Made by a program: the position numbers and the translations under genes. The notes under the pieces are model-generated. The model did no database searches and was not told the origin of the DNA. It worked only from the letters and a program-made list of their open reading frames with translations. From positions 172,653-236,652 of the IMG/VR virus record IMGVR_UViG_3300028384_001500: a DNA stretch of 64,000 nt. The stretch is one strand, 5' to 3'. Origin of the DNA: a virus. Shown piece after piece: positions 10,282-63,591 of this stretch (the stretch's first letter is position 1; each line of letters starts with the position of its first letter).

Positions 10282-10324
10282 ATTTGTTTCCTGTTAACTA
10301 TAACTATCTTGCCTATAAAAAACC

Positions 10325-26668: not shown

Positions 26669-26700
26669 ATTAACGCCTCATTTTTATATATAAATATACC

Positions 26701-27837
26701 TTACTTTAAAATTCCCAATCCTATAGCTGCACTTTTCATAATTAAACCTTCCCCAAACAAAATTCCGACTACAGATACAACCAGTGACCCGACAAGCGTG
26801 AGTATAGTTTGATGCAAAGCAGATATTAAAGATGTACTATCTTTAAGAAGATTTTTAATTTTTTCATTTTTTTCTAATTCATTAAAAAACTTTCCAAAAA
26901 TAGAATCTGCAAGAGCTTTTAAAAAGTTAGGTATGCTAAACTCACCAGTTAGTATCTTTTTTGCTTCTTCGATTGCTGCTATAAGTATATCAGGCGGGTC
27001 AAGTATACCAGCTGGCGTCGAAGCTAGGGCGATTTCTCGAAGCATGTCAAGTTTTATCTTAAGCATTTCAATAAAAATCACACCAATAGGCGGCACATCT
27101 AGTTCAAAATTAAACAAAAAGGCTATTATCGACTCGAGTGATATAAGTTCTAGATCTATTCCTGGAATATCAAAATCAAACAAACTTATTGGATCTGTTA
27201 TGTCAGGTATTGCAGGTAACTCAGGTATTTCAATATTGAATCCTGCTGCTATTTTTTCGGCAGCTTCTAATATTTTCGTTTTAACGTCGTTAATGTTAAG
27301 TTCTGAAATTATTTCTTTAAAAACTTCTGCTATTTTTTCGGCAGCTTTTGTCACTATGTCTATATCGTCAATGCCCTCAGCTAGTTTTTTAATTTGATTC
27401 ATTAGCTCTTTGCTTCTTTCTAAAACTTCTGGTAATTTTGTAAGTAAAAATTCATTCGGGTTTGGTATACCTATATCAGATAGTATATCTGTTAAATTAT
27501 TCAAAACAGGCAGCAAAGCTGCTGTTGGATCTGACACTCCAACAGCAGATAGAACATTAACAGCAGGTATTGCATCGACAATAGAAAAAATAGGTTTAAC
27601 AGCAGGTATAAAAACAGATCTAAAGGTTGATTCATCTTTTGATGCTTGTGCGATAAAACCATCAGCTGCTGATTCTGCTGCTTCACCCGTAGGCAGTTCT
27701 ACGTCAAAACCAAAGTCTAAATCTAAAAAATCAATTCTAGGCTTTTTGCCAGCACGAATTCCTTCCTCTATAGCTTTGATAAACATATCTGAAAAACCAC
27801 CATCTAAGTCTATTCCTATGTTTTTTAAAGCTCCCAT
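26701..27837 (-). CDS. Unknown tail-region protein with amphipathic helices and hydrophobic C terminus
   Basis: A 378-residue protein between the spike-like and gp25-like genes. It contains repeated amphipathic helical segments (IVTKAAEKIAEVFKEIISEL and KILEAAEKIAAGFNIEIPEL), Pro-rich links and acidic motifs. It ends in a strongly hydrophobic stretch, LTLVGSLVVSVVGILFGEGL, that could span a membrane. Such composition fits a tail-hub-associated or tape-measure-like protein that contacts the host membrane, but no family is recognised. It starts 4 bases after the 521-residue gene, so it is coupled to it. Function is inferred from position only. Confidence 0.55.
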   Translation of the reverse strand: MGALKNIGIDLDGGFSDMFIKAIEEGIRAGKKPRIDFLDLDFGFDVELPTGEAAESAADGFIAQASKDESTFRSVFIPAVKPIFSIVDAIPAVNVLSAVGVSDPTAALLPVLNNLTDILSDIGIPNPNEFLLTKLPEVLERSKELMNQIKKLAEGIDDIDIVTKAAEKIAEVFKEIISELNINDVKTKILEAAEKIAAGFNIEIPELPAIPDITDPISLFDFDIPGIDLELISLESIIAFLFNFELDVPPIGVIFIEMLKIKLDMLREIALASTPAGILDPPDILIAAIEEAKKILTGEFSIPNFLKALADSIFGKFFNELEKNEKIKNLLKDSTSLISALHQTILTLVGSLVVSVVGILFGEGLIMKSAAIGLGILK

Positions 27838-27841
27838 TTTA

Positions 27842-29407
27842 TTACCTAAACATTACTTTGCTAGCAAATTTACCAGCTGGTCCTGACGCATCTTGTGGGT
27901 CAATACCCACAACGCCACCCATCGTTGATGTTATTGGCACACCTGAAACAGTTCCTCCTGCTGGAATACCTGTTTGAACAAGTGCTACATTTAGTGCGTC
28001 TTCAGGTTCCCCACCTAGATATAAAAGACCGTTTGCACCTGGGACTATAGCTATTGAACCGTCCTGTCGTATGCTAATATACGCGCCGCCTTTGGCGGCC
28101 TTAAGAATAATATTGCCTTTGTCATCTAAATCAATAAACGTTTCCCCTATTTTAGATGCTAGCCTTACATCTTCACTTCCAACAACTCTGTTATGCTTAG
28201 CATAAGTAATTATTGACGGACCTAGTTTTAGGTTATCTCCTAGAATGTCAAAATTAATGCCAAAAACGTTGTCAACGTCACAATTGTGAGAAAGATACAT
28301 TCTTGCGCCAATGTCTATTGCATCTGTTTTATCGTCAACTAGTTCTTTATCAAAAACAGTGTCATCTTTGTACCTTATGTGCGCTAGCTTATCATTTTCT
28401 ATATAAGCATATAAGTCGTCATCTGTGGAGTTTTTGACTGTATTGATTTTATCTAATTTTTCTGTTGGTGTACTTTCTGTAAGTTGGTTTATGGATTCAA
28501 GTTTTCTTTTTACAAATATGTCAATCGCTGACATGTCTGTCTTTCTAGCAGCTAGTGTATCGCTAGATGATAACTTTCCTGTAAATTTTACAGGATCAGC
28601 GTTTACTTCTTCAGGAAGGCTAAACTTTTCTGTTGTTAAATGTATACCTGAATTGTTGGATCCTTGAAGAAGTAAATCAGAACAACCTTTTGCCATTCTT
28701 GGAACCGGTTCTCCTGTAAACTCACCTCTGTATGCATACGAATTAGAAAATAAGTCGATAAATGTAGTATCTAGGTTCGTAAATTCATCTTCACCTTTAT
28801 TTAGAATTGATCCTAGACTTAATAAATCATCAGACAAATCTCTTGCTCCGGCACTTTTAATGAATTCGTCAAGTATTACATTTGTTCCCGATGTTCTTTC
28901 AATATGAGTAAAGTTTAAGTCATCAACGTGAATTGAACCAACCTGGCGACACATCCAATAGTAGAGTTTTGATCCTCTCATATCAGCTTCAATTAGCCAG
29001 ACATACTCTCCTGGTTTTAAAGGTAAGGATAAGTGAGGAGGGAAGAATGGGTAACAAACAACAGGCAAAGCACCATCTTTTGAATTATTTCCAGCGTCAA
29101 CAATTTTTGCAAATATTGAATTAATAGGAGCAGTTTCAACTAACTCTTTGTTTTTTATACCCAGATTGATACCTTCTAGTTTTTTACGACCAGAAAGTAC
29201 CTCGCCAACAGTTGCTTCGTCTCCATTATCGTTTTTAATTTTGCTTCTTAAAAACTCATACGGGTTTGAGATTACGTCTGTTACAATACCTGTCAAAAAC
29301 CTGTATTCAACGCCTCTCTCTAGTCTGTCTTTTGAATTTTGCAACAAGTCAGAACCTGCAACCTTTCCGAGCGTCGACTTAAGAAATCGGTAATCTTTTC
29401 CTGCCAC
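27842..29407 (-). CDS. Baseplate hub/spike protein with gp5-type OB-fold region
   Basis: A 521-residue protein. Residues about 30-170 resemble the OB-fold region of T4 gp5/VgrG-like spike proteins: VEYRFLTGIVTDVISNPYEF, then ALPVVCYPFFPPHLSLPLKPGE and YVWLIEADMRGSKLYYWMCR. The C-terminal part contains short hydrophobic beta repeats (LASKIGETFIDLDDKGNIIL, GAYISIRQDGSIAIVPGANG) like those that form the trimeric beta-helix needle of central spikes. I see no lysozyme catalytic domain, so unlike T4 gp5 it seems to be a spike without a muralytic module. It stands first in the run spike, unknown, gp25, gp6. Confidence 0.7.
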   Translation of the reverse strand: MAGKDYRFLKSTLGKVAGSDLLQNSKDRLERGVEYRFLTGIVTDVISNPYEFLRSKIKNDNGDEATVGEVLSGRKKLEGINLGIKNKELVETAPINSIFAKIVDAGNNSKDGALPVVCYPFFPPHLSLPLKPGEYVWLIEADMRGSKLYYWMCRQVGSIHVDDLNFTHIERTSGTNVILDEFIKSAGARDLSDDLLSLGSILNKGEDEFTNLDTTFIDLFSNSYAYRGEFTGEPVPRMAKGCSDLLLQGSNNSGIHLTTEKFSLPEEVNADPVKFTGKLSSSDTLAARKTDMSAIDIFVKRKLESINQLTESTPTEKLDKINTVKNSTDDDLYAYIENDKLAHIRYKDDTVFDKELVDDKTDAIDIGARMYLSHNCDVDNVFGINFDILGDNLKLGPSIITYAKHNRVVGSEDVRLASKIGETFIDLDDKGNIILKAAKGGAYISIRQDGSIAIVPGANGLLYLGGEPEDALNVALVQTGIPAGGTVSGVPITSTMGGVVGIDPQDASGPAGKFASKVMFR

Positions 29408-29408
29408 A

Positions 29409-29744
29409 TTAATCTCCTATACTATTAAATATATCATCAGGAGATACTGTGTCTTGTCTTTCTTGTTCTTTTGCTATAACTTCTGCCAGTTTAATAATTT
29501 GATCATTACATTTTGACATTCTTTCTAGATATTTTGTTGCCAAACCGCCATAAGTTGAATGATTTGCTGCATTACCCGGGATTGTAACCAATAAGTCATT
29601 TAAAAGAATTGCAGCACTTTCTCTATCTTCAATGGCATTTTGATAGGACTCTCTCCACAAAAGCTTTTTTTTGTCTTCAGTATTCTCTAAACTGTCTAAT
29701 AGATCAGCAAATTCTTTTATTTTGTCTTCTTTGTTCTTTTTCAT
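29409..29744 (-). CDS. Small helical protein of unknown function (111 aa)
   Basis: A 111-residue, predominantly helical and charged protein (DSLENTEDKKKLLWRESYQN, then YLERMSKCNDQIIKLAEVIA). It sits between the late sigma factor (sharing one base with its stop) and the spike gene (1 base away). No motif, signal peptide or membrane segment is visible. The size and composition would fit a small assembly or recombination-mediator protein, but nothing in the sequence proves either. The gene is supported by tight packing on both sides. Confidence 0.6.
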   Translation of the reverse strand: MKKNKEDKIKEFADLLDSLENTEDKKKLLWRESYQNAIEDRESAAILLNDLLVTIPGNAANHSTYGGLATKYLERMSKCNDQIIKLAEVIAKEQERQDTVSPDDIFNSIGD

Positions 29745-30496
29745 TAAAGTCCCATTTTAAACATCGATGAATATTCATCATTGTTTTTAACTATTTCCCT
29801 ATAATGTTTTCTTACATTCGACATTGCTACTGAGAGCTGCTTTGGATTAAGTCCTGATATTTCCCTTAAATAGACAAAAATAGCTCTCTTGTTTAAAAAT
29901 TCTAGCTCATCTATGTTTTCAAATAGTTTTATCACAGCATGCACACAGAGTTTTTCATTTTCATTTCTAATTTTATTTGAAATAATATTAAGTACTTCAA
30001 ACATTCTTTTTCTGTCTTCCCTTCTTATCATTGTCGACTCTGGAGAAGGCACATAACTATACACTTCTATGCTTTGTTTATCTTTTGAACTTAAACTTGC
30101 AAAATTTTCAAAGCTAACATTTCTTCTCTCTTTTTTGTTTCGCTTGTTTGTTTGAATTATTAAAAAGTTTTTAGCACAAACATTAAAATATGAAAACGCT
30201 TTAGATCCTCTTTCAGGATCAAACTTTTCTAAAGTTTCATATAAAAAAGTAACAGCATCGTTTTTAAGAATACTAAAAGAAGCAGGGTCTCTTGCAAAAC
30301 TATGTATGAAGATTAAGTTTTCAACTAGCTTATTAAAAGAAGGCCTAATTTTTTCTTCATATATTTTATGCTTTTCTTTTACACATAGACTGGATTGGTA
30401 TTCAACAATGGCTTCGTGAGCTTCTTTTCCAAAATAAAGTTTTTTTTGTGTTGATTTTTTGCCTCTTTTAACTGTCTTCTTTTTTAATTTCGCCAC
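29744..30496 (-). CDS. Late transcription sigma factor, T4 gp55-like
   Basis: A protein of about 250 residues resembling phage late sigma factors. Residues about 55-125 form a sigma region-2-like block (NKLVENLIFIHSFARD, then FLYETLEKFDPERGSKAFSY and FNVCAKNFLI). The C-terminal segment (FLNKRAIFVYLREISGLNPK, QLSVAMSNVRKHYREI) matches the terminal helix-turn-helix-like part of gp55-type proteins. It would direct host RNA polymerase to late promoters of TATAAATA type. Two GTG starts are possible: 30505 with GGAGA only 2 bases upstream, and 30496 with the same GGAGA at about 9 bases. I prefer the latter. It overlaps the end of the upstream membrane-protein gene. Confidence 0.8.
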   Translation of the reverse strand: MAKLKKKTVKRGKKSTQKKLYFGKEAHEAIVEYQSSLCVKEKHKIYEEKIRPSFNKLVENLIFIHSFARDPASFSILKNDAVTFLYETLEKFDPERGSKAFSYFNVCAKNFLIIQTNKRNKKERRNVSFENFASLSSKDKQSIEVYSYVPSPESTMIRREDRKRMFEVLNIISNKIRNENEKLCVHAVIKLFENIDELEFLNKRAIFVYLREISGLNPKQLSVAMSNVRKHYREIVKNNDEYSSMFKMGL

Positions 30497-30788
30497 TATT
30501 TTCACTCTCCATATTTTTTGTAATCTTATTAGCTATAACAAGTATTGATCTGTGACAATCTTTAATATCATTTATTACTTGCCTGATTTCAACTGAGTCA
30601 AAAAATATAGGTTTTTGAATAACTTCATTCATACTGCTATATTTTGCATTAAGTATGTCAAGAGACTCTTCAACAGCGTCTTCTATATCAATAATTAGCA
30701 AAGCAAATTGATATAGCTTCCACCCAAGAAACGCAGATAAAGACATTGACAGGCCACACAAAATCATAAGTATGATATTTAAACTCAT
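30468..30788 (-). CDS. Small N-terminally anchored membrane protein (106 aa)
   Basis: A 106-residue protein with one N-terminal hydrophobic helix (residues about 3-33, LNIILMILCGLSMSLSAFLG) followed by a charged cytoplasmic-type domain containing PIFFDSVEIRQVINDIKDCH. I recall similar small proteins next to gp55-type genes in marine T4-like phages, but no function is known to me. It overlaps the upstream glycosyltransferase gene by 4 bases (ATGA) and the sigma-factor gene downstream, so all three are probably co-translated. It is too short to be a holin with several spans. Confidence 0.6.
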   Translation of the reverse strand: MSLNIILMILCGLSMSLSAFLGWKLYQFALLIIDIEDAVEESLDILNAKYSSMNEVIQKPIFFDSVEIRQVINDIKDCHRSILVIANKITKNMESENSGEIKKEDS

Positions 30789-31972
30789 TTTTCTAAGTAC
30801 TCGCTCAAAAGATTATTATATTTATTAATAATTGCTGATCTATTGTAATTAAATCTTACATCCTTCATTAACAATTTGGCATTTTGTTTTGCAGATTGGT
30901 AGTCATCTTTTATTTTTCGAATTTCTTTTTTAAAGCTTTCTTCTTTAGGGTTTGCCCATTTAAACCCTTCTTTAAACACCCTATTATCTATTTTAGACTT
31001 TTGTATTTCAACCAAATCGTAATCAACTACTCCAAAATATTTTTTATTTAAAAATTCTAAATGTCCTGACCATCCTGTTGCAATAATTGGGATTCCAGAA
31101 GCAGCAGCCTCTACTAAAGGTAGTCCGTAACCTTCTCCTCTTGTTGCTGTGGCATAGCATTTAACGTAACGATGATTGAAAAGTGCAGACATTTCTTCTT
31201 TTTGCATATTACCATGAACTAGTTTAATTTTAGGGTGGCTAGGTAATTGATGTGCCTCTTTAAAAGATCTTAAGTAATCTATACACATTTTTTTATCTAC
31301 AGTCGACCCTTTTCCAAAACTAGTCTTAAGAATGATTTCTACATTTTCGTCGTCTTTAAATTCTTCACACGTCCATTTAATTGTATTTAGAATATTTTTT
31401 CTATCATTTTCAGGTATTTGACTTGTTAACGTTCCTACCATTAAGACATTAAACTTATTACTAATTTTTTTAAATCTATCATCATTTAGTATTTTATCAT
31501 TAAGACTTTTATTAGTTAAAACTGGATTAAACCACTCTTGTATGACAGAAAGTTTTGTGGTAACTATTCCTGATCTCTTAAGTACATTTTTTGTAAATGT
31601 TGAGGGTACAATTACATGATCCATGCTATTACATTTATCAACCCATTCCGGAGAACACTTGTCAGTTTCTACTAGCGCAGTCACACCAATGTTAAATTTT
31701 CCCAAAGAAGTATCCCACTCATCAGGAAGCTGAACTTGAATTGACATGTCTATTTCATTTTTATTAAAGGGTTTAGACTTAGCCATTATTCTTTTTACTA
31801 TTCCATTTTCTTCTTTTTCATCAATTATCCAACTTGTCCTTCCCCACTGGAGACACTCAACAATCAAGTCTATATCTTCTCTTCCATCTAACCAATCAAA
31901 TATTTGGCGTGAATGTACCCCGTAACCACTATTTGTGAGTAAAGGTGCTCTTAAAAGTATCTTTTTCATCAT
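30785..31972 (-). CDS. Glycosyltransferase, GT-B fold (GT4-like)
   Basis: A 395-residue GT-B glycosyltransferase that would transfer a sugar from a nucleotide donor. The C-terminal donor-binding half shows NVLMVGTLTSQIPENDRKNI (start of the second Rossmann domain) and the family signature RGEGYGLPLVEAAASGIPII followed by ATGWSGHLEF, with the paired acidic positions of GT4 enzymes. The N terminus, NSGYGVHSRQIFDWL, is a typical acceptor-domain start. The acceptor and sugar cannot be read from sequence. It overlaps the next glycosyltransferase (31969..33219) by 4 bases, and both belong to the glycan island. Confidence 0.8.
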   Translation of the reverse strand: MMKKILLRAPLLTNSGYGVHSRQIFDWLDGREDIDLIVECLQWGRTSWIIDEKEENGIVKRIMAKSKPFNKNEIDMSIQVQLPDEWDTSLGKFNIGVTALVETDKCSPEWVDKCNSMDHVIVPSTFTKNVLKRSGIVTTKLSVIQEWFNPVLTNKSLNDKILNDDRFKKISNKFNVLMVGTLTSQIPENDRKNILNTIKWTCEEFKDDENVEIILKTSFGKGSTVDKKMCIDYLRSFKEAHQLPSHPKIKLVHGNMQKEEMSALFNHRYVKCYATATRGEGYGLPLVEAAASGIPIIATGWSGHLEFLNKKYFGVVDYDLVEIQKSKIDNRVFKEGFKWANPKEESFKKEIRKIKDDYQSAKQNAKLLMKDVRFNYNRSAIINKYNNLLSEYLEK

Positions 31973-54019: not shown

Positions 54020-54427
54020 ATGAGATTAAATGTTGATCATGACCTGCATTATACACCTGAGCAGCTGAAACTTGCTGGAGAATTCATCCTATTCTGCGCA
54101 GATAGTTTACCAATAGAGGGAGACTTTAGTGTTTACCTGACCAATTCTCGGGAACAACACGGTATAGCAACAACTGCACTTTATGAAGTTGGAAATAATT
54201 GTTGCCGTGTCTATTGCAAAAACAGAGCACTGGCTGACGTATTAAGGTCGGTGGCACATGAAATGACGCATATGATGCAAGACCAAACCGGTCTAATAAG
54301 AGGACCAATTAGAGATGCAGGTGGATTTCATGAAGATCAGGCAAACGCAAAAGCAGGTGAGTTAATTAAACTCTTTGCAAAAAGTAAACCTGAAAATAGA
54401 ATGATTTACGAGCGTAGATTAAATTAA
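54020..54427 (+). CDS. HExxH metalloprotease-like protein (135 aa)
   Basis: A 135-residue soluble protein with a zinc-protease motif HEMTHMMQDQTG (His80, Glu81, His84). A downstream acidic helix, FHEDQANAKAGELI, could supply the third zinc ligand in gluzincin fashion. It has no signal peptide. It lies 15 bases after the trypsin-like gene with AGAGGTAACA before its ATG, so both form a small plus-strand operon. It overlaps the convergent M15-like gene by 9 bases. Substrate is unknown. Confidence 0.65.
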   Translation: MRLNVDHDLHYTPEQLKLAGEFILFCADSLPIEGDFSVYLTNSREQHGIATTALYEVGNNCCRVYCKNRALADVLRSVAHEMTHMMQDQTGLIRGPIRDAGGFHEDQANAKAGELIKLFAKSKPENRMIYERRLN

Positions 54428-55138
54428 CTTTTGATAAAGTTTTGCCAATGCCTTGGTTGACGTAATTCTATTTGATGACATACCTACTTTTTTAAGCTCA
54501 TTTTCAAAATTTTTAAAATACTTAGGCATATCTTTATTAGCAAATTCAAAATGATGAAATTCAGTAATTCCTCTTCCCTTAGGTGTCTGACCTTTTTTTA
54601 GTGAAGCTTTTCCTGAGCTAAAAGCACCGCCCCAATACACTTTATTTTTATACTCAGGCAATTCTAAAAAAGAAATAATAGCATCAACTAATTTTTGATC
54701 TTTTACTAATATCGAATTAAACTTTTTATAGCTTGTATACTTTCCGTATTTTTTTGTGTGCATATAGACGTCTTGAGCAAGACCTGCCCCGTGCTTAGAT
54801 CCAGAAACCCTGTCTTTATTGCCTGCATTGTCAGCTGCAGCACTTAATGCTCTTGTCACGCCTAAGTTGTCAATTTTAAGTCCAATTTCTGGGTAAACAG
54901 AATTAACATAAGCTTCTAATTTTTTTCTAAATCCATCCCAGTAACCTTTTGGCGATATGCCTGTTCTAGGGTCACCTAAATACTTTTTTCCACCAGAGGC
55001 AGTTACTAGTTCTCCTTCATACGCAGATGATTTGTCTGTATTATTTGAATTATTGCTTGTTGTCTTGACATTATAGTCGCCTTTATTTTTGAGTTTTTCT
55101 CTTAATAACAGGCGTATTTTTTCTTCAGATATTATCAT
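54419..55138 (-). CDS. Leader-tagged M15-like peptidase (putative cell-wall hydrolase)
   Basis: A 239-residue protein. Residues 1-19 (MIISEEKIRLLLREKLKNK) form the short basic amphipathic leader shared with the neighbouring genes. A low-complexity linker (about 20-45) leads to an M15 D-Ala-D-Ala peptidase-like domain with the zinc motif SKHGAGLAQDVY (His116, Asp123), YWGGAF, and TEFHHFEF (His195/196). It would cleave peptidoglycan cross-links. No secretion signal is present, so it may act as an endolysin or be carried in the virion. The ATG directly abuts the stop of the 594-residue gene. The catalytic assignment is by motif only. Confidence 0.65.
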   Translation of the reverse strand: MIISEEKIRLLLREKLKNKGDYNVKTTSNNSNNTDKSSAYEGELVTASGGKKYLGDPRTGISPKGYWDGFRKKLEAYVNSVYPEIGLKIDNLGVTRALSAAADNAGNKDRVSGSKHGAGLAQDVYMHTKKYGKYTSYKKFNSILVKDQKLVDAIISFLELPEYKNKVYWGGAFSSGKASLKKGQTPKGRGITEFHHFEFANKDMPKYFKNFENELKKVGMSSNRITSTKALAKLYQKLI

Positions 55139-56923
55139 TTAGTTGTACCTACCAGCAGGAAAATTTAAAACAATTTCAAATTTTCTTGTTTTGGACCTAA
55201 TTTTACTTCTAATTCTTGACGGCTCAATCTTTTCGTTGTCTGCGCTTCCGGCTTTTTCTAAATACCTTCTAACAACGTTTCTAAGATTTTCAAATTGCTT
55301 TGCAACTGGAGATCTTCTTTGACCAGGCGCTAATCTTACGTTTTTAACAACACCTTGACGATCTGTCACTATAGTTAAGTTAATTGTCCCACCAGAAATA
55401 TTTCCTTTAACCCTTTGAGAGACAGCATTTACTAAACCATTAGTAGTTCCTTCTTTAAAACCTATACTTTCTAAAGAAGATTTTCCTTGGCCTGCTAATA
55501 TTACTCTAACTGTAGGCTTAAGTCCAAAACCAGTATCAGTTAGCTCACTTCCTGAAATTGTTTCATTACCTGGTATTCTTTTTCGGCTGCGGCCTCCTGA
55601 ACCTCCACCTGATTTAATTTTTTTATTACCTGATCCATAATCAGTGTTTCCATTATAAGCATCAACAACAAACGCTAAACAACCGATTGATCTAGGTACA
55701 TATCCAGGAAAAGCTCCTATCATGTCACCTGAAACTTCCGTCCATGGATAAAAACCACTTTGATAAGTTTTTGAATATTCAAGTGTTTTAAAGACTGAAT
55801 GATATGTAAAAGAGTGGTTAAGCACTTTCCCCCAAAGATCGTCAGTTTGTGGGCCCCATTTACCATCAACTGTGATTTTCATTCCTAAGTTTCTTTCTTC
55901 TGAGTACTTGTTCATAACAAATTGTATTTTTTGAACGGTTGTTCCTTTTAAATCATTAGGATTGATAGGTACAATCTGAGTTGTAGGATCATCAGGTTCT
56001 GGTGGGTTGTTAATTAACTCGTTAACTTGATTTGAAAATTCAATCAATTCTTTTTCACTATAACAAGCTTTTTGTCCATTTCCGTCTTTGAAGCAAATAA
56101 CTGCCTTTCTTTTAAGATCTTGAATAGGCTTTCGGACATAGTCTTCCATATCGTTAGTAAAAGCTAAAGATTCTTCATCACTAAGTTCCTCATTAAAAAC
56201 TTTAACCAAGTCTTTTTTGTATTGCTGCTTAAAAGCTGATGCTGTTAACGACAAATCCATGAGTGAAGGCATTTCTCTAATAACAGTCTCAATTTCACCC
56301 TCATCAGTTCCCATTCCAAAAAAACCACCCTTGGTAGCTCTCCAGAGACGTTTGGCCATTTTAGTATGTAAGTCTAAGACATCATTGTAGTGTGTTAAAG
56401 AAGGAAAGTTTGCCAATTGATCTTGCATGCCGGCTTCTTTCATTTTAGCTTTTGTTTCTGTTTCAATTTTTTTAAGTTCAGCGTTTGTTTTTTCAGCCCA
56501 AGTTCCGTTAAGAATACCCTCAATGTCACTTCCCACGTCACCTTCATCTAATAAAATGTATGCAATTCCAAGTCCTATAGCAACGCCAGCACCAATAACC
56601 CAACCCGGAGGACCCCCCGATATAGCAGCTGCTGCACCGGATGCAGCACCACCGCCAGAAAGATAACCAGCTGCAATAGCAGCAGTAGTTGAATTAGCCA
56701 CACCACCTGCTGTTGCAAGCTGTGCTGCTGCGCCTAAAGTTAAGTTTGTAGCACCTAGCGCACCTAACCCACCTGTTACTCCGTATGTGGTAGCTGCCCC
56801 AGCGATACCTGCTGTTGCAAGATCACCAGCTATTTCTCCCCCACCTTGCTTGTATTTTTCTGCTTTTTCTGCAAGTATGCGCTTTCTAATTATTTTTCTT
56901 AATTCTACCTCTGATAATCTCAT
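55139..56923 (-). CDS. Leader-tagged multidomain protein: Gly/Ala hydrophobic, annexin-like, PG-binding-like
   Basis: A 594-residue mosaic. It has the basic leader (1-19, MRLSEVELRKIIRKRILAE), a Gly/Ala-rich hydrophobic region (30-128) that could insert as hairpins and ends GWVIGAGVAIGLGIAYILL, and an annexin-repeat-like segment (199-262) with the calcium motif GMGTDE. A peptidoglycan-binding-like segment (about 325-370, ITVDGKWGPQTDDLW) follows. The C-terminal domain (about 490-594, GGTINLTIVTDRQGVVKNVR) reads like TonB/AgmX-type C-terminal domains. The combination suggests a protein working at the envelope, perhaps virion-borne. It is 1 base from the 267-residue gene upstream. All domain calls are by eye. 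Confidence 0.6.
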   Translation of the reverse strand: MRLSEVELRKIIRKRILAEKAEKYKQGGGEIAGDLATAGIAGAATTYGVTGGLGALGATNLTLGAAAQLATAGGVANSTTAAIAAGYLSGGGAASGAAAAISGGPPGWVIGAGVAIGLGIAYILLDEGDVGSDIEGILNGTWAEKTNAELKKIETETKAKMKEAGMQDQLANFPSLTHYNDVLDLHTKMAKRLWRATKGGFFGMGTDEGEIETVIREMPSLMDLSLTASAFKQQYKKDLVKVFNEELSDEESLAFTNDMEDYVRKPIQDLKRKAVICFKDGNGQKACYSEKELIEFSNQVNELINNPPEPDDPTTQIVPINPNDLKGTTVQKIQFVMNKYSEERNLGMKITVDGKWGPQTDDLWGKVLNHSFTYHSVFKTLEYSKTYQSGFYPWTEVSGDMIGAFPGYVPRSIGCLAFVVDAYNGNTDYGSGNKKIKSGGGSGGRSRKRIPGNETISGSELTDTGFGLKPTVRVILAGQGKSSLESIGFKEGTTNGLVNAVSQRVKGNISGGTINLTIVTDRQGVVKNVRLAPGQRRSPVAKQFENLRNVVRRYLEKAGSADNEKIEPSRIRSKIRSKTRKFEIVLNFPAGRYN

Positions 56924-56924
56924 T

Positions 56925-57728
56925 TTATTCTTGTCCTTTTCCTAAAATTTGATTTGCCAAATCTTTTCCGCTACCGGCTCTTCTTGCATCGTCTCTATTT
57001 GATAATCCTTTGTTAGCAGCGTCTAAGCCGCCCTCAACACCAATTGCACCTAAAGTACCTACAGCACCCATCTTAGCAAAATCGCCTAGTTCATCTGCTA
57101 AACCACCTTTATATACGCCGTTGTATAAGAAGTCTTTTAAACTATCATATTCACAAAATATAGCCTCAATCTTAGGTTCAATAATCGGCCCAATCCATTG
57201 GTAAATAAACTGATTAACAACCTCTCTACCCGCTGCATTTATTAATCCGCCAAGCGCCTTATCTAATCTATCTAATAACTCAGGTGATTTAATTTTTTCT
57301 TGACCGGTAACTGTATAATAAATAACTTTGATCAGTTCAGCACCTTGAAGTTCTGTAATTGTTTCAATACCTGCACGAGCAACTAATGCTGGTATTTCTT
57401 TGCATTTCCCTTCCTCAAAATATTTACCCATACCTAAAATATTAAATTCTTCAATAAAATTCATTAAGAATCTAAAAACTACGCTTTGTTTATCAACACC
57501 CATAAGATCAGCAAGGTATTCAATCACTTGAGACTTAAATGCACTAACTAAACCACCGCCAAAAATATCCATAATATTTTCCTCAATAACACGAGGCTGA
57601 TATCCGGATAATTTGTAGTTGATTTGATCGATTCTTTCCATAATCAAATGATTGGTTTTTAATTCATTTAACATTACTTTGCTTTCAATAGACTCTTGCA
57701 CAAGCCTTCTTATTTGATATTTGTTCAT
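56925..57728 (-). CDS. Leader-tagged protein of unknown function (267 aa)
   Basis: A protein of 267 residues beginning with the shared leader MNKYQIRRLVQESIESK. The middle is helical (IMDIFGGGLVSAFKSQVIEY with LADLMGVDKQSVVFRFLMNF) and the end is Gly-rich (AKMGAVGTLGAIGVEGGLDA), resembling the Gly/Ala region of the next gene. It has no recognised family. I place the start at 57728, where GGAG lies 9 bases upstream; the longer frame to 57797 would add a non-matching 23 residues. It is 1 base from the 594-residue gene, so the two are co-expressed and may act together. Confidence 0.6.
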   Translation of the reverse strand: MNKYQIRRLVQESIESKVMLNELKTNHLIMERIDQINYKLSGYQPRVIEENIMDIFGGGLVSAFKSQVIEYLADLMGVDKQSVVFRFLMNFIEEFNILGMGKYFEEGKCKEIPALVARAGIETITELQGAELIKVIYYTVTGQEKIKSPELLDRLDKALGGLINAAGREVVNQFIYQWIGPIIEPKIEAIFCEYDSLKDFLYNGVYKGGLADELGDFAKMGAVGTLGAIGVEGGLDAANKGLSNRDDARRAGSGKDLANQILGKGQE

Positions 57729-57786
57729 TATTATGTTCTCCATGCATGATCTAACTATAATTATTAACGTCTGATTAAATGTTATA

Positions 57787-58110
57787 TTATATTTCAATCA
57801 CATAAGAATATTTAACACCTGGATTGAATAATTGCTTCTGATACGGTCTGGCTTTGAAATCTTTAAGTATGTTGAAGTCTTTATCTAAAAATATAATATG
57901 AAGAGGAATTCCAGTATTTTTCATTGTAAAAGAATGATTTACGGGTGTATTATAAACAAACAACATACCGTGATTTTTTGGAAGTTCTTTTATTTTTGAC
58001 AGGCCTATTCTTTTTTTATTGGGAGTGTCAGCTATGGCTAGTGTGTAAGTCCTTCCCATAATTTTTGTTTTAATTCTCTTATAACCTTTAAAAAGTTGGT
58101 AAAAATGCAA
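57787..58110 (-). CDS. DUF192 family protein
   Basis: A small beta-rich protein of the DUF192 family. It has TYTLAIADTPNKKRIGLSKI, LPKNHGMLFVYNTPVNHSFT (the conserved GMLF segment), MKNTGIPLHIIFLDKDFNIL and the terminal YSYVIEI. The function of the family is unknown; many members are secreted, but none of the usual signal peptide is seen here. The frame opens at a TTG (58110) after TAGGCGG; the first ATG (58059) would cut into the first strand, so I keep the TTG start with reservation. It lies divergent to the metzincin gene. Confidence 0.7.
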   Translation of the reverse strand: MHFYQLFKGYKRIKTKIMGRTYTLAIADTPNKKRIGLSKIKELPKNHGMLFVYNTPVNHSFTMKNTGIPLHIIFLDKDFNILKDFKARPYQKQLFNPGVKYSYVIEI

Positions 58111-58132
58111 CGTGCACCGCCTAATGATATAG

Positions 58133-58140
58133 TATAAATA
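58133..58140 (+). promoter_or_regulatory. T4-type late promoter motif
   Basis: TATAAATA at 58133-58140 equals the T4 late promoter consensus. It lies 17 bases upstream of the ATG of the plus-strand metzincin gene, whose AGGAGAAGAG ribosome-binding site begins at 58147. A gp55-like late sigma factor is encoded at 29744, so late expression is plausible. No convincing -35 hexamer is seen, as expected for this promoter class. Confidence 0.5.
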
Positions 58141-58157
58141 TACACCAGGAGAAGAGA

Positions 58158-58616
58158 ATGTTTATGTTTGCAATATTTTTAACAATTCAAAATGCAAATG
58201 CTGACAAAGAGACGCTAGTAAAAGCATATGAATGGGAAAAAAAACCAGCAATACAAATTTGCGGTGATTCAAATGTAACAATTAAAGAAGTAAATAATGC
58301 CCTTTCTTATTGGCAAGATGAGCTAAATAATAAAAACTTGGTAAAAAGTGTATCTTACAAAGAAACATGCTCATTTAATAGATCAAATGTTATTTTATTT
58401 ACTAACGAATACAATAGAAGATTTGAAAAAGAACTGGCAAATACAAACTTAGACTGGTATTATTATGAAGGTGAAAGCCAAAAATATCTGAACACAGCAA
58501 AAGTAGCAATCCCTAATAATATATCATATAAGCGACAATTAACAATTACACATGAGTTAGGTCACGCCTTGGGTTATCACCACTCGAATCACGAAGTAAT
58601 GAAAAGCCATTTTTAA
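58158..58616 (+). CDS. Secreted metzincin-type zinc metalloprotease
   Basis: A 152-residue protein with a short signal peptide (MFMFAIFLTIQNANA, cleavage after Ala15). The full metzincin zinc motif HELGHALGYHH starts at residue 132 (HExxHxxGxxH), followed by a Met in NHEVMKSHF that could serve as the Met-turn. The family is matrixin-like; the domain is short, so it is a minimal protease. The ribosome-binding site AGGAGAAGAG is strong, and a T4-type late promoter motif lies upstream. Export to the periplasm and digestion of envelope proteins is inferred. Confidence 0.75.
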   Translation: MFMFAIFLTIQNANADKETLVKAYEWEKKPAIQICGDSNVTIKEVNNALSYWQDELNNKNLVKSVSYKETCSFNRSNVILFTNEYNRRFEKELANTNLDWYYYEGESQKYLNTAKVAIPNNISYKRQLTITHELGHALGYHHSNHEVMKSHF

Positions 58617-58619
58617 ACA

Positions 58620-58644
58620 AATAAAAACTCCGGCCTGACCGGAG
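58620..58644 (-). terminator. Rho-independent terminator of the accessory operon
   Basis: CTCCGG (58628-58633) pairs with CCGGAG (58639-58644). On the minus strand the hairpin is followed by a U-rich tract (revcomp of 58617-58627: TTTTTATTTGT). It ends transcription from the genes at 58711 and above before it can run into the plus-strand metzincin gene. A second small hairpin, ACCCC/GGGGT (58677-58681 and 58685-58689), lies between it and the stop at 58711. Confidence 0.75.
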
Positions 58645-58710
58645 CGAGCTGCCCAACTCTATGAGCGAAGAGCAGTACCCCGAGGGGGTCCTACTTTCTC
58701 TCCACCCTGC

Positions 58711-59169
58711 TTACTCAAGAAAATCATCTGGATATCGATTTGGGTTCCGATTTCTAGAATACCGATCAAGATTATAATCATCCGAACCCAAATAAGAGTC
58801 AGTCTTACTCCGAGCTAGATCATATGCTTTATCATCTAATGCACGTAGATCATGCAAAGAGTCAGGGTGAAGTGCACGATACCCGCCCGGGAAAAAAGGA
58901 TCAACCGGCTCATAGAGTGCAGCAGCCTCATTACCTAACCTTTCCATGTCACCAACTTCCATATACGCTATGTAGTTATCGACATAATCATCTGGACCGC
59001 CCAATGCGTCGACAAGAGAGTGGGCTTGTTCTACTGACCCCCTATCGATCAACGAGTTAATCTTTGCTACGTGACTATTAGGAATATGCGCAGGTAATGT
59101 CGGCTTAATCCGATGTTCAGATAAAACTTCCATGATTAGGTCTCGTAAACGTCTTCTATTTAATTTCAT
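58711..59169 (-). CDS. Leader-tagged single-module protein, paralogue of the repeat protein
   Basis: A protein of 152 residues: leader MKLNRRRLRDLIMEVLSE, then HRIKPTLPAHIPNSHVAKIN, LIDRGSVEQAHSLVDALGGP, DDYVDNYIAYMEVGDMERLG and a C-terminal DRYSRNRNPNRYPDDFLE. This is one complete copy of the module present four times in the protein at 59575..61680, with the LSEH junction at its start; it stops just where the next L-x-E would occur. I use the ATG at 59169 (GGAG about 8 bases upstream) rather than 59232. Function is unknown. The module is helical with an invariant VGDMEKLGN-type motif. Confidence 0.7.
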   Translation of the reverse strand: MKLNRRRLRDLIMEVLSEHRIKPTLPAHIPNSHVAKINSLIDRGSVEQAHSLVDALGGPDDYVDNYIAYMEVGDMERLGNEAAALYEPVDPFFPGGYRALHPDSLHDLRALDDKAYDLARSKTDSYLGSDDYNLDRYSRNRNPNRYPDDFLE

Positions 59170-59191
59170 ATTATTTTCTCCAATTGCCTGC

Positions 59192-59578
59192 TTAAATAAA
59201 GTCATCATCATCATCGTCGAAATCATCGACAATAGTCGACACCGGATAAGTGTTCATATTACCAGGATAATATTCTCTAAATCGGCCTCGTCCTCCGCCT
59301 ATCTCATCATCGAAGTATTGGATCTGTGCGCCGATTGTATCTGTGTCACCGCTCTCTAAGCTGTGCACGTGAGTAAAACCCATACCTTTGAGTGCTACAA
59401 GAGCACCGGCAACTTCATCCATTTCGTCGACGACGATTTCTCCACCTGCTAGTTCAGGATGGCGCAGGGTGAATCCGGCACCTAGTGATAACTCTACAAC
59501 CTTCATAGTATTGTCTTGTAGCATTGTTAGCTCATTAAGGATCATGCGTCGCAACGCTCTTCTGTTTAAGCTTTTCAT
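59192..59578 (-). CDS. Leader-tagged acidic protein of unknown function (128 aa)
   Basis: A 128-residue protein with the shared leader MKSLNRRALRRMILNELTML, a middle that alternates strand and helix (KVVELSLGAGFTLRHPELAG and VAGALVALKGMGFTHVHSLE), and a very acidic end (TIVDDFDDDDDDFI). No family is recognised. It overlaps the large repeat-protein gene by 4 bases at its start and is 22 bases from the next tagged gene, so the three are one transcription unit. The leader is nearly identical to the internal leader-like copy in the repeat protein. Confidence 0.65.
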   Translation of the reverse strand: MKSLNRRALRRMILNELTMLQDNTMKVVELSLGAGFTLRHPELAGGEIVVDEMDEVAGALVALKGMGFTHVHSLESGDTDTIGAQIQYFDDEIGGGRGRFREYYPGNMNTYPVSTIVDDFDDDDDDFI

Positions 59579-61680
59579 AAAGTAGGCCCTCCTGCGGCTT
59601 CTATCATTTCTTCCAGTTCATAAGCACGAGACTGCAATTCTTCTTTATCATCGTAGTAATCGGGATACTCCATTTCATACCCATAAGCAGCCTCGATGGG
59701 ATCAACACCGAATCGCTCTTGAGTCATGAGGTAGTCCTGTCTTTCCATTTCCATTTCTTCGAGTTGTGCCTCGATACGCTGCAATTCTTGCATCATTGCG
59801 TCGATCGACATGGGAGGCTGTCCGCCTATACCCATGCTTGACATCTCTTGCAAGATCATGCGTCGTAATCCGGCTCTGTTGGAGTTATGTTCATTTAGCG
59901 GTTTAACACTTCCCATGCCTCGCATGTATCTGTCACGCATGTATGGGTAACTTGCATGTGTACGCGCACCCGGTTTTGTAGTGCCATCGAACCCAGGGGC
60001 TAGTCCGCGTGAGACTTTGTCTGCCCCTAACCTGTAAGCCTGGTTGTCTAAGTCTTCAAGTTGTCTGTAGTCATCAGATTCGTACCATTCTGGATCTGAG
60101 TAATCAGCATTGGCAAGTATATCAGCTCGAGCATTACCTAGCTTTTCTAAGTCACCCACTTCTTCGTAGGCTCGATAATTTTCGACCCAATTTGGATCGC
60201 CACCAAAAGCGTCGATGAATGTCTGTGCCTGATCAAAATCGCCGGTATTAATTAAGTCATGGATCTTATCGATGTGCGACTGCGGCAAACCTAGTAGATC
60301 AAGCGGTGGAGGCGCAATACGATGTTCATTTAGTGGGTTGCCGTCGTCATCGAAATAGGTAGGCGACTTGTCTCCTCTATGGTCAACAAAAGTATGAGGC
60401 AAAGTGTTATTTCTAATGTTGAAGTATCTGTCACGCATATAGTCACGATCCCAAGTGGTGTCAGCTGGAAGTTCCCCTCTTTCTATTTTGCTATTGACAC
60501 TGTCATAAGCATGCTTATCGATATCGTAGACAGGCTGCATATCACTCATTGTTGACCAACCTCTTTCTGTTTTAGGTACTCTGGACATAACGTCAGCTGC
60601 CCGGTTACCCAGCTTTTCTAAGTCTCCGACTTCATCATACATTTGATAATCTCTTGCATAGTTAGGAGGACCACCAAAAGCGTCGATGAGTGACTGTGCC
60701 ATTTCTAATTCTCCATCACTGATGAGATCATGGATCTTGTCGACGTGATCCTGTGGTACACCCGGTAGATTAAGTGAGGGCGCAATGCGATGCTCAGATA
60801 GCGGCCTGTCTCTGTTACCTACATATCGTCGCATATCAGACTGAAAGCTACCACTACCACCAAAAATAGAATGAGCATCTCCGTCTATCATTTGCCCTCT
60901 TTTGTGAGCTATACCAACAGCTTCCCTATCTATGTTTTTGAGTGCATTTGTCAATTCTAAACTGTCGCGATCATATGTCGATCTAGCATCGTAGGCTTGA
61001 TTGCCCAATTTCTCCATGTCACCTACATTACTATAAAGAATATAGTCGTCAACGTAGTCAACAGGCCCGCCAAGAGCATCGATGAGCGACCGTGCCATCT
61101 CTATTTCACCTCCGTCGATGAGGTCTTGTATTTTGTGCAAATGGTGAAGAGGAATATTTGTGGGAACAGGAGGCGCAGTGAGATGCTCAAATAAGAATTC
61201 ATCCGGATCCGATTCATCATCGATATATCTATCTCTGTTACCTCTATAGCGATCCAGAGCTATGTCTTGGGCATCTGGGTTATAATACTCTTGACCGTCC
61301 TCAATTTCTACGGCTTTGTCCTGTGATAGCGAGTAAGCCTCCCTGTCTACATCACGTACTTTTTTCCAGTCATCAGTTTTCATAAAGTCACGCGCAGCGA
61401 ATTCTTCTGGAGAGTCAGGGAGGATGTCTGCAGCTCGATTACCTAGCTTCTCCATATCACCTACATTTTGGTACTCTAGATAATCCTGCGCATAAGTAGG
61501 AGAGCCACCCAAAGCATCAACCAGCGATTGGGCTTGGGATAAGTCACCGTGATCGATGATGCCATGTATAGTATCCAAGTGCTGAGGTGGTATTGCACCT
61601 GCGTCTGGCATTGTCCGGTGTTCTCTTAAAGCCATTCGCTCCAAGATCATTCGTCGTATTTTCTGTCGTGAGATTTTCAT
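59575..61680 (-). CDS. Leader-tagged four-module repeat protein (putative polyprotein)
   Basis: A protein of 701 residues. It starts with the leader MKISRQKIRRMILERMALRE and then carries four homologous modules of 131-156 residues. Each begins after an L-x-E-H site (numbering from the longer in-frame ATG at 61698: 24-27, 169-172, 300-303, 456-459, and a fifth at 601-604). Each contains IDALGG...YxxVGDxEKLGN, an acidic middle and an NRDR or DRYxR end. After the fifth site comes a second leader-like segment, NRAGLRRMILQEMSS, and a coiled-coil tail of about 90 residues. I start it at 61680 (GGAG about 8 bases upstream). No enzymatic motif is seen. Confidence 0.75.
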   Translation of the reverse strand: MKISRQKIRRMILERMALREHRTMPDAGAIPPQHLDTIHGIIDHGDLSQAQSLVDALGGSPTYAQDYLEYQNVGDMEKLGNRAADILPDSPEEFAARDFMKTDDWKKVRDVDREAYSLSQDKAVEIEDGQEYYNPDAQDIALDRYRGNRDRYIDDESDPDEFLFEHLTAPPVPTNIPLHHLHKIQDLIDGGEIEMARSLIDALGGPVDYVDDYILYSNVGDMEKLGNQAYDARSTYDRDSLELTNALKNIDREAVGIAHKRGQMIDGDAHSIFGGSGSFQSDMRRYVGNRDRPLSEHRIAPSLNLPGVPQDHVDKIHDLISDGELEMAQSLIDAFGGPPNYARDYQMYDEVGDLEKLGNRAADVMSRVPKTERGWSTMSDMQPVYDIDKHAYDSVNSKIERGELPADTTWDRDYMRDRYFNIRNNTLPHTFVDHRGDKSPTYFDDDGNPLNEHRIAPPPLDLLGLPQSHIDKIHDLINTGDFDQAQTFIDAFGGDPNWVENYRAYEEVGDLEKLGNARADILANADYSDPEWYESDDYRQLEDLDNQAYRLGADKVSRGLAPGFDGTTKPGARTHASYPYMRDRYMRGMGSVKPLNEHNSNRAGLRRMILQEMSSMGIGGQPPMSIDAMMQELQRIEAQLEEMEMERQDYLMTQERFGVDPIEAAYGYEMEYPDYYDDKEELQSRAYELEEMIEAAGGPTL
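59890..61620 (-). repeat. Four tandem coding modules separated by L-x-E-H junctions
   Basis: Within the preceding CDS the modules cover residues 27-171, 172-302, 303-458 and 459-603 (61698 numbering). Conserved lines are the junctions LREHR, LFEHL, LSEHRI and LNEHRI; the helix IHDLI..G....A.SLIDA.GG; and the block VGDMEKLGN or VGDLEKLGN. A fifth, free copy is the 152-residue protein at 58711..59169. The sequences have diverged at both protein and DNA level, so the duplication is old and unlikely to be an assembly artefact. Confidence 0.85.
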
Positions 61681-61749
61681 TTCTGCTCCGTGATGCATCG
61701 TATTATAACTATTTACACTGTATTTATTTTTCTTATTAAATATTAAAAA

Positions 61750-62385
61750 CTAGTCACGAGTTATAAAAAGTTTATTGCCCATTGCCATAATAGTCGTGTT
61801 ACTCTTAGAATAGCGTTTACTCAGGGGAGACATTGCCCAGTAAATACCGTCGTAGCCTATCATGTTCTTAGGAATACGCTGAGACATGTTATCCCAGTCG
61901 TCAGGAGTCAAGGTGTTCTTTGTGTCATCACACTGAAAAACATCGATGTCTCCGGCGCCTGACTGGCTATACTGGGATCGATTTCTAAGATAGAAGTCCC
62001 AGACGTCTTGAGCATCTTTGCTGACCATGCGACGATCAGCGACCAGCCCTGACCCCTTCATCGAGGCGACTTCCATCGCGATATCATAGATAAGCGGGCC
62101 GTAACCGTTTGCCGCCATGGCCTGATACACCTCCCAAGCGCCGCCGCACGTGTCGTCTTTTAAGGGCACTATCGCAATATATCCGTATATGCCCTCAGGA
62201 GACGGACTGTGGTCTTCAGCGTAGAATCTACCCATAGACCCGTCGGCGTTGATTCCGCAATATGTCACACAAACGTCGCCCTTAGGGAAGAAATTGACAT
62301 TTACACCGATTGTCGGAGGTAACTCTCCGTGTGCGATCATGGCTTCAGAGATTATTTGATTTAGCTGCCTTCTTGTAATTCTCAT
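61750..62385 (-). CDS. Leader-tagged GNAT-like protein
   Basis: A 211-residue protein opening with the leader MRITRRQLNQIISEAMIAHG. It continues with GIYGYIAIVPLKDDTCGGAW, EVYQAMAANGYGPLIYDIAM and EVASMKGSGLVADRRMVSKD followed by AQDVWDFYLRNR. The order of strand, GAWEV turn and YGPLLYD-like helix resembles acetyltransferase-like proteins seen in marine phages, but the acetyl-CoA loop is not canonical, so the activity is uncertain. The ISEA at residues 13-16 fits a T4-prohead-protease-type cleavage site. It is preceded by a TATAAT and a copy of the conserved upstream box at 62403. Confidence 0.6.
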   Translation of the reverse strand: MRITRRQLNQIISEAMIAHGELPPTIGVNVNFFPKGDVCVTYCGINADGSMGRFYAEDHSPSPEGIYGYIAIVPLKDDTCGGAWEVYQAMAANGYGPLIYDIAMEVASMKGSGLVADRRMVSKDAQDVWDFYLRNRSQYSQSGAGDIDVFQCDDTKNTLTPDDWDNMSQRIPKNMIGYDGIYWAMSPLSKRYSKSNTTIMAMGNKLFITRD

Positions 62386-62402
62386 AGTGATTATAACTAT
62401 CT

Positions 62403-62430
62403 AAAAGTTCTCCAAAATTCAGGAGAAATT
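62403..62430 (-). promoter_or_regulatory. Conserved upstream box, copy C, with TATAAT
   Basis: On the minus strand, AATTTCTCCTGAATTTTG followed by GAGAACTTTT, homologous to the boxes at 62948 and 63631. It precedes a TATAAT at 62395-62390, five bases in front of the GNAT-like gene start. TTCTCC and GGAGAA form an inverted repeat here. The box overlaps the stop codon of the gene at 62429. The -10 is closer (7 bases) than in the other copies, so the promoter assignment is less certain. Confidence 0.45.
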
Positions 62431-62710
62431 AACGTCGTCTTACCCATATGTTATCATCACAGCGACTAGTTCGCAAATGCCAACAACCGCAGTCATCCGA
62501 CCAGTACGCTGTATGCTGACGATCGTACTTCAAGAACTGATATCTTGAGTAAAGATCAGCAACTTCCTCGTAAGGAAAACGAATTTTCTTGCACCCGCTG
62601 TAGAAACAGTTACACTTACTGAACTCACCGCGGAAATGATATTTTCCGTTTTTAATAATTATTGACCAAGTTCTCCGCCCATCCCTGACAGACTTACATA
62701 CACGTTCCAT
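62429..62710 (-). CDS. Small Cys-rich protein of unknown function (93 aa)
   Basis: A protein of 93 residues with cysteines at the N terminus, in SKCNCFYSGCKK and in WSDDCGCWHLRTSRC, a pattern that could bind zinc. It is basic and aromatic-rich (VADLYSRYQFLKYDRQHTAY). The ATG at 62710 has GAGGAG about 8 bases upstream; a GTG at 62719 lies too close to that site. It lacks the leader of its neighbours, and a promoter and roughly 200-base leader region lie upstream. Gene status is likely but not certain. Confidence 0.5.
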   Translation of the reverse strand: MERVCKSVRDGRRTWSIIIKNGKYHFRGEFSKCNCFYSGCKKIRFPYEEVADLYSRYQFLKYDRQHTAYWSDDCGCWHLRTSRCDDNIWVRRR

Positions 62711-62920
62711 TGAACACACTCCTCTATGATAATCGTTTTTTTACGATATCACTTACGATGTGTCCCGAAACTTCACGTCCACCCATTAGCCTCTCTTCCA
62801 GAAGGACCTGCGCTTTCCCGTTCGGATCTAAGCTTTACCTCTATGTTGCTGTCTAGACACCGTCGATCTTTTAGGTTGGCCATTCTGGACTATGGCAATC
62901 TCTAGTACCCATACATTTAT

Positions 62921-62949
62921 ATTATATGCTGTTTCACACACGGTTACAA
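62921..62949 (-). promoter_or_regulatory. Sigma70-type promoter
   Basis: On the minus strand TTGTAA (62949-62944), a 17-base spacer and a perfect TATAAT (62926-62921). It lies directly downstream of the conserved box (62984-62948) and points toward the Cys-rich gene at 62710. It follows the terminator of the previous gene, so it starts a new transcription unit. Confidence 0.65.
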
Positions 62950-62984
62950 AAGTTTTGCAAAATTTTCCGGAGAAATTTTTGTGA
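62948..62984 (-). promoter_or_regulatory. Conserved upstream box, copy B
   Basis: A 37-base element, on the minus strand TCACAAAAATTTCTCCGG then AAAATTTTGCAAAACTTTT. It is nearly identical to the 36-base copy at 63631-63666. It spans the -35 and the region just upstream of it at the promoter 62949-62921. Its centre is an imperfect palindrome (AAATTT..TCCGGA..AAATTT type), which would suit a regulator-binding site or an UP element. Confidence 0.6.
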
Positions 62985-63013
62985 GAAAAAGAAACGCCGG
63001 TGATGAGCCGGCG
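62985..63013 (-). terminator. Rho-independent terminator after the 185-residue gene
   Basis: CGCCGG (62995-63000) pairs with CCGGCG (63008-63013) around a 7-base loop. On the minus strand the hairpin is followed by TTTCTTTTTCTC. It lies 20 bases beyond the stop of the gene at 63034. On the plus strand a T run (63018-63022) also follows at short distance, so it may work both ways. Confidence 0.75.
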
Positions 63014-63033
63014 CGAGTTTTTACTTTTATCTA

Positions 63034-63591
63034 TTAACCCCAACCATCAATTCTCATATGCGGGTAATTTTCAACAATATACATCATTGCCATACGGCCC
63101 CAGTCATTTTCATCTTGAATATTTAAAAGCAAATTAATTGGGCCGTCTTTCCAACTATTAAATGGGCCAGGTCCTCGATTCTGGACCACGTAATCATAAT
63201 TACAATAATTAAGCAACGTCTGCTGCCTATCAATATCGATCGGATTTGTAGGTCCCATAGTGTCAGGAAAATCATCAGGTTTCATACCCGCAATACCGTA
63301 AGTTAACTCTAGTTCTGCCAAGATTCTCTCAAACTCCTGAATAGCTCGATCAATCGCTCTTTTAACACTAGCTTCAGAAGTTCCACCGTATATCGTCTTC
63401 AAAACATTATCACTAGCTTCGTCAAGATATATTTTTAAAATGGCTTCGCCTTTTCCGCCGGCTCGATCTTCTCCCATGCCAAAAAATCCACCTGGCGGCG
63501 ATATCACATTGTCTTTATCATCATCGTTAAAAATAGTGTCTCTAAACTCTTTTAAAACCATCTGTCGTAACTGTGTTCTAGTCAATTTCAT
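63034..63591 (-). CDS. Leader-tagged protein with GGFFGMG annexin-like motif (185 aa)
   Basis: A 185-residue protein starting with the leader MKLTRTQLRQMVLKEFRD. At residues 34-43 it carries GGFFGMGEDR, matching GGFFGMGTDE at the start of the annexin-like repeat in the 594-residue protein. The rest is helical (ASVKRAIDRAIQEFERILAE), with a C terminus reading WGRMAMMYIVENYPHMRIDG. No known family. The ATG at 63591 follows AAAGGAGAAGCT, and a TATAAT plus conserved box lie upstream. A terminator follows, so it is monocistronic. Confidence 0.65.
   Translation of the reverse strand: MKLTRTQLRQMVLKEFRDTIFNDDDKDNVISPPGGFFGMGEDRAGGKGEAILKIYLDEASDNVLKTIYGGTSEASVKRAIDRAIQEFERILAELELTYGIAGMKPDDFPDTMGPTNPIDIDRQQTLLNYCNYDYVVQNRGPGPFNSWKDGPINLLLNIQDENDWGRMAMMYIVENYPHMRIDGWG

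Follow-up and report, generated by a model that had tools for sequence, protein, structure and literature searches.

The window analysed here is a stretch of 64,000 nucleotides, the final 64 kb of a 236,652-base virus record (IMG/VR IMGVR_UViG_3300028384_001500, positions 172,653 to 236,652), and eight genes near its end, all on the minus strand, encode proteins that begin with the same short, basic leader (Table 1). An earlier reading of the letters alone (the original prediction) had picked out these eight leaders and taken them for a targeting and processing signal that loads cargo into the virion. All eight are indeed present, and with open reading frames called across the whole record the set proves to be far larger: the leader stands on 45 of 252 genes, where internal or shuffled N-termini would yield about 0.5, and its carriers make up 18% of the genes and 15,302 of the 75,753 coded residues (20%). 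These genes are clustered near 24-42, 57-87, 135-147 and 227-236 kb of the record. Judging from sequence, the leader is very probably a capsid-targeting propeptide of the T4 type, which a gp21-type S77 protease would remove after the motif (L/I)-x-E, leaving the mature cargo in the phage head.

The leader core was modelled as an 11-position matrix and scored on the N-termini of the 252 genes; two further matches, at 164275 and 196983 (internal GTG), were dropped as false by eye. The core consensus is M-K-I, followed by T-R/K-x-Q-L/I-R/K-x-L/I-I-x-E. When all 45 proteins are aligned, the consensus (MKITRxxLRxLIxE) is confined to the leader, and the proteins fall into 42 BLAST clusters, which bears out the earlier claim that the bodies behind the leader are unrelated. 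A matrix trained on only the 37 leaders outside the window, with 19,870 internal 30-residue windows of the same proteome as the null, recovers all eight window leaders, the empirical p being 0 for six of them, 0.0002 for the gene at 55139 and 0.0009 for that at 56925. The leader also fixes start codons, as had been proposed: the gene at 58711 starts at 59169, that at 59575 starts at 61680, and that at 56925 starts at 57728 (more likely) or 57743.

Near the end of the core, 44 of the 45 leaders carry (L/I/M)-x-E. The exception is 56925, which has VQE at the usual position, MLNE beyond it, and GGAG just 5' of the start at 57728. All 21 leaders that have no E at the usual position have a shifted motif (21/21; the null, from 5,000 shuffles, has a mean of 10.5 and a maximum of 19). 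Since it is the tripeptide that is kept, and not a fixed residue position, we regard it as the predicted cleavage site, giving short N-terminal propeptides of 12-32 residues that end in (L/I)-x-E. Two adjacent leader paralogues of 764 and 763 residues (L002:7415-9709 and 9709-12000; record 26415-31000) have redundant LxE sites.

A protease of the appropriate type is encoded in the same genome. The record contains, in T4 order, a terminase, a gp20 portal (1e-73), a gp21-type S77 protease (Peptidase_S77, PF03420, 2.1e-27, at record 152873-153475), a scaffold-like protein and a Gp23 capsid protein (1e-77). The N-terminus of the capsid protein has (V/L/I)-x-(R/K/S)-E followed by a small or polar residue (VLRE|AN-like), which is conserved in aligned relatives and altered, among these, only in the diverged pelagiphage HTVC008M; it lies at the position of the known cut in T4 gp23. 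We also surveyed the head operon in 80 related contigs. At nearly all 80 loci a gene soon after gp21 encodes a protein of about 130-190 residues that starts like MAKLSRSxLKSIVKECLVEILxEG, and the gene after it encodes one of about 80 residues that starts like MSxVKKLTPxxLKRIIxEEK. Both proteins have the leader architecture, many of them scoring below the matrix threshold, and both are encoded between the protease and capsid genes. Two side observations concern head genes. A 280-residue protein between portal and gp21 (record 153477-154319; L009:1477-2319) has 11 LxE and 2 mirror motifs, which would suit a core protein destined for digestion; and in the related contigs L075, L076 and L082 two Gp23 major capsid genes (14781-16679, 16773-18662) lie in tandem and share their N-terminal sequence.

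The leader also occurs together with gp21 in other genomes. A degenerate leader DNA pattern matches 84 stretches in IMG/VR contigs, and its codon-permuted version matches none. In 257 Gb of prokaryote genomes the pattern is found on one contig, which itself has gp21 and 25 leaders. It is a contig of 306 kb (L178; contig C5 of G044, NHDW01000006.1) in a metagenome-assembled genome of Methylococcaceae (TMED69), most probably derived from a jumbo phage and placed in the bacterial bin. The S77 protease is present in 12 of 12 leader contigs of at least 141 kb and is rarer in shorter fragments. With three mismatches allowed, 2 to 36 leaders are found in each of 16 gp21 records, with none in seven controls and none for the reversed pattern; in random viral contigs the leader is on 0 of 299 genes. 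Leader matches spread evenly over genomes without a prohead protease, which the original prediction had named as evidence against itself, were not seen. Among cultured phages, three genes of the Flavobacterium phage vB_FspM_immuto_2-6A (NC_055915.1; L211, L214), whose host is Flavobacterium sp. LMO8, have a shorter form of the leader (YP_010114603, MKKSQLRQIIKEAL; YP_010114589, MKKSQLREIIRKEL; YP_010114588, MKKSELVKLIKEEL), and a tblastn search of cultured phages with a joined leader peptide gave no match, a query so short being insensitive.

Bodies enclosed in one compartment with gp21 would be expected to avoid (L/I)-x-E. Counted from residue 46 on, with E-x-(L/I) as the mirror control, the bodies are indeed poor in the motif: 320 leader proteins of relatives have 438 (L/I)-x-E against 606 mirror motifs, as compared with 1,011 against 1,005 in 532 non-leader proteins (permutation p<1e-4). 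In the window's phage the leader proteins have 129 motifs and 191 mirror motifs, the other proteins 606 and 583. Control motifs (D, Q, K, V/F, other spacing) are not similarly depleted, and in a blind scan of 1,079 residue-pair patterns at four spacings, with one protein per cluster, LxE is the most depleted pattern (228 against 314 expected, z -4.1) and IxE is also low. T4 IPI, IPII and IPIII each contain one (L/I)-x-E, at the end of the propeptide, and their mature parts have 0 against 2.7 expected. With 24 LxE against 13 mirror motifs, the scaffold is rich in the motif, which fits a core that is expected to be digested.

The cargo behind the leader is diverse. In the phage and its related contigs one leader is common to 476 proteins, whose bodies form 291 clusters, 210 of them singletons. 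Few known domains occur among the bodies (L,D-transpeptidase, SLT transglycosylase, LysM, phage lysozyme, HNH, exonuclease and HD); there is also a match to the PHROG called internal virion protein with endolysin domain, and the bodies of the window's phage include a TseH-like match and a nucleotidase. Searches of its 45 bodies against Pfam, PHROGs and NCBIfam leave nearly all as orphans. A twin-arginine translocation (Tat) signal, for which there were two weak matches of one member each, was rejected as an explanation of the leader. In a sister phage (G040), whose protease is 91% identical and which has 31 leader genes among 261, homologues are found for 4 of 44 leader proteins as against 129 of 178 other proteins (p=6e-15). 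The cargo thus turns over fast while the tag is kept.

The gene at 59575 appears to encode a polyprotein. Between its leader and its C-terminal unit, (L/I/M/F)-x-E sites occur only at the four repeat junctions, where the head protease would release the repeats as separate units. In 7 of 7 units, counting these junctions and the single-unit proteins 58711, L128 and L148 (LSE|HRIKP, INE|HRIKP and FLE|HIIKP), the site has the form (L/I/F)-x-E|H. The leaders of the single-unit proteins vary from 18 to 32 residues despite the constant H. Since H follows every site though the leader lengths differ, the duplicated piece would consist of the site together with the mature domain. An AlphaFold model of the repeat unit is all-helical (confidence score, pLDDT, 73) and has no PDB match.

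Head loading and processing of the leader proteins are strongly supported at the level of sequence: the S77 protease, the shifting motif, the leaders beside gp21, the co-occurrence with gp21 and the avoidance of the motif in the bodies all favour the targeting and processing role originally proposed. The basic amphipathic N-terminus (M-K-I-T-R/K-x-x-L-R/K-x-L/I-I) would bind the prohead core, bringing a new protein in; the gp21-type S77 protease would then cut the leader off after (L/I)-x-E, and the mature cargo would stay enclosed in the head alongside the DNA. We infer core binding, cutting and presence in the virion from these sequence features. The mature cargo would probably be ejected into the host and act there as a set directed against the host or its defences, which we infer more weakly, from the T4 precedent and the cargo turnover. 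The fast turnover suggests that many cargo proteins act on host defences, like T4 IPI, and the tag points to a large, fast-changing set of proteins carried inside the virus. On balance we lean towards the view that the marine jumbo phages of this group are equipped with a modular and quickly exchanged arsenal of dozens of virion-borne effectors with one cleavable tag, some of them protease-cut polyproteins, ejected at infection.

Most leader proteins may instead be loaded into the head and processed there but not injected, as transient core or structural proteins that help to give the head its shape or to fill it and are left behind or degraded. The leader-type proteins in the head operon beside gp21 and the LxE-rich scaffold are in line with such a role, which we consider possible but rather unlikely: the near-complete turnover of leader proteins between sister phages that conserve their other genes is unlike that of core structural proteins, the bodies avoid LxE instead of gaining it, and certain bodies are nuclease- or peptidoglycan-enzyme-like. 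It is improbable that the leader is an amphipathic helix that targets a membrane or host structure and is unrelated to the head. The net charge of residues 2-15 (+3.4 against +0.8 in other proteins) and the raised hydrophobic moment would suit such a helix, but it leaves unexplained the ever-present, shifting (L/I)-x-E, the avoidance of LxE in the bodies, the (L/I/F)-x-E|H junctions and the leaders beside gp21. Even less probable is a signal coded in the nucleic acid, such as a translation or RNA element or a recombination seed. The leader genes do stand in tandem arrays, like a recombination cassette, but where leader residues are identical the codon is also identical in 47% of pairs, close to the 42% expected from genome codon usage, the conserved tripeptide changes register, and searches for late-promoter and upstream k-mer enrichment gave no common upstream element. 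Since codon sharing is near expectation and no upstream motif is shared, the leader is conserved as protein and is not a recent DNA copy or a promoter. Chance, in the form of basic N-termini in an AT-rich genome combined with selection by the reader, has only the shortness of the leader in its favour and is practically eliminated by the controls (45 against about 0.5 expected, the independent training, 0 of 299 random-contig genes, and no matches for reversed or permuted patterns).

Several observations weigh against a T4-type capsid-targeting propeptide. No similarity in sequence links the leader with the T4 propeptide MKTYQEFIAE, and the matrix gives IPI-III scores of -17 to -20. Such similarity is not a functional requirement; because it is lacking, we claim likeness in function to the T4 capsid-targeting sequence (CTS) and not homology or common descent. 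Not all head proteins avoid LxE, the mature capsid protein being the counterexample. The control for co-occurrence with gp21 has few large leaderless contigs (one, of 191 kb), and the leader contigs are interrelated. No more than one leader of this sequence is present in gp21 phages of other lineages (HTVC008M, and the part of Mel-JY01 that was read), and a number of bodies look like enzymes that work in the cytoplasm or the tail (nucleotidase, HNH, transglycosylase, baseplate hub).

In T4, cleavage by gp21 follows L/I-x-E, the ten N-terminal residues of IPIII are enough for targeting, and exchanging the final E for D stops processing yet leaves targeting intact (PMC9026906); the internal proteins are highly diverse defence proteins in which the CTS alone is conserved (PMC3012670). 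Like the CTS of IPI-III and Alt (PMC9026906, PMC3012670), a 10-20-residue N-terminal propeptide ending in (L/I)-x-E, the leader is found with an S77 protease and a Gp23/gp20 head, on unrelated bodies whose mature forms lack (T4) or are poor in (here) the motif. Unlike the CTS, it is strongly basic and occurs on about 45 proteins, whereas PMC9026906 names four internal cargo proteins in T4; in addition, the cargo here includes a polyprotein and is turned over nearly completely between sister phages. The inner-head propeptides of phiKZ, 201phi2-1 and SPN3US (PMC5694885, PMC9026906) offer a second parallel, in that these are large phages with many head proteins, a gp21-related protease that cuts after Glu, and propeptides with redundant sites; SPN3US gp53 and gp54 have 15 N-terminal residues in common. 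However, phiKZ uses S/A-x-E and the propeptides of SPN3US are often longer than 100 residues, whereas here the motif is (L/I)-x-E and the leaders are short. Packaged polyvalent or escort proteins (PMC5512222) are likewise effectors predicted to be delivered by the virion, with nuclease, peptidase or peptidoglycan domains, but they are defined by a multidomain architecture, and the proteins here by a common leader on mostly orphan bodies. A survey of jumbo phages does not mention targeting sequences (PMC7824862), and we found no paper on the leader strings in the open literature, subscription journals and preprints lying outside the search. The T4 and phiKZ-type precedents were already known; new here are the scale, the sequence of the leader, the polyprotein, the signature left by motif avoidance and the fact that all this is seen in phages from marine metagenomes.

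In large environmental phages the majority of genes have no assigned function. As a putative head-targeting propeptide, the leader provides a new packaging tag by which sequence alone predicts hundreds of orphan families as virion cargo, and it raises the predicted tagged cargo per phage about tenfold over T4. The avoidance of LxE would serve as an independent marker for proteins that share a compartment with the prohead protease.

Table 1. Leader genes of the window and predicted gp21 cleavage sites in window coordinates; a vertical bar marks the predicted cut
Feature	Coordinates	Strand	Description
54419	54419..55138	-	239 residues; leader MIISEEKIRLLLRE (codons 55138-55097), predicted cut LRE|K; matrix 13.7 bits, p=0
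55139	55139..56923	-	594 residues; leader MRLSEVELRKIIRKRILAE, predicted cut LAE|K after residue 19 (shifted site); p=0.0002
56925	56925..57728	-	Start 57728 (MNKYQIRRLVQE) or 57743; weakest leader, p=0.0009; further sites present
58711	58711..59169	-	152 residues; corresponds to a single repeat unit of 59575; predicted cut LSE|HRIKP after residue 18
59192	59192..59578	-	128 residues; leader MKSLNRRALRRMILNE, predicted cut LNE|L
59575	59575..61680	-	Predicted polyprotein, 701 residues: leader, four repeats of about 140 residues, C-terminal unit with internal leader-like stretch NRAGLRRMILQE
59575, repeats 1/2	61185..61186	-	Predicted gp21 site FLFE|HLTAP (residue 165)
59575, repeats 2/3	60792..60793	-	Predicted gp21 site PLSE|HRIAP (residue 296)
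59575, repeats 3/4	60324..60325	-	Predicted gp21 site PLNE|HRIAP (residue 452)
59575, end of repeat 4	59889..59890	-	Predicted gp21 site PLNE|HNSNR (residue 597)
59575, end of internal leader-like stretch	59844..59845	-	Predicted gp21 site ILQE|MSSMG (NRAGLRRMILQE|M; residue 612)
61750	61750..62385	-	211 residues; leader MRITRRQLNQIISE, predicted cut ISE|A, the sole (L/I/M/F)-x-E in the protein; relatives aligned
63034	63034..63591	-	185 residues; leader MKLTRTQLRQMVLKE, predicted cut LKE|F

The names that the original prediction had given to several bodies fared less well. There is no Pfam match at E<=0.01 for 54419, 55139, 56925 or 61750, the M15 peptidase match in 54419 reaches only E=0.063, and a PDB sequence search with 54419 gave no match. 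The AlphaFold model of 61750 (pLDDT 39) is uninformative on its reading as a GNAT protein. Among the leader genes of the window there is also a small leaderless gene, at 57787-58110, whose product is DUF192-like by eye only.

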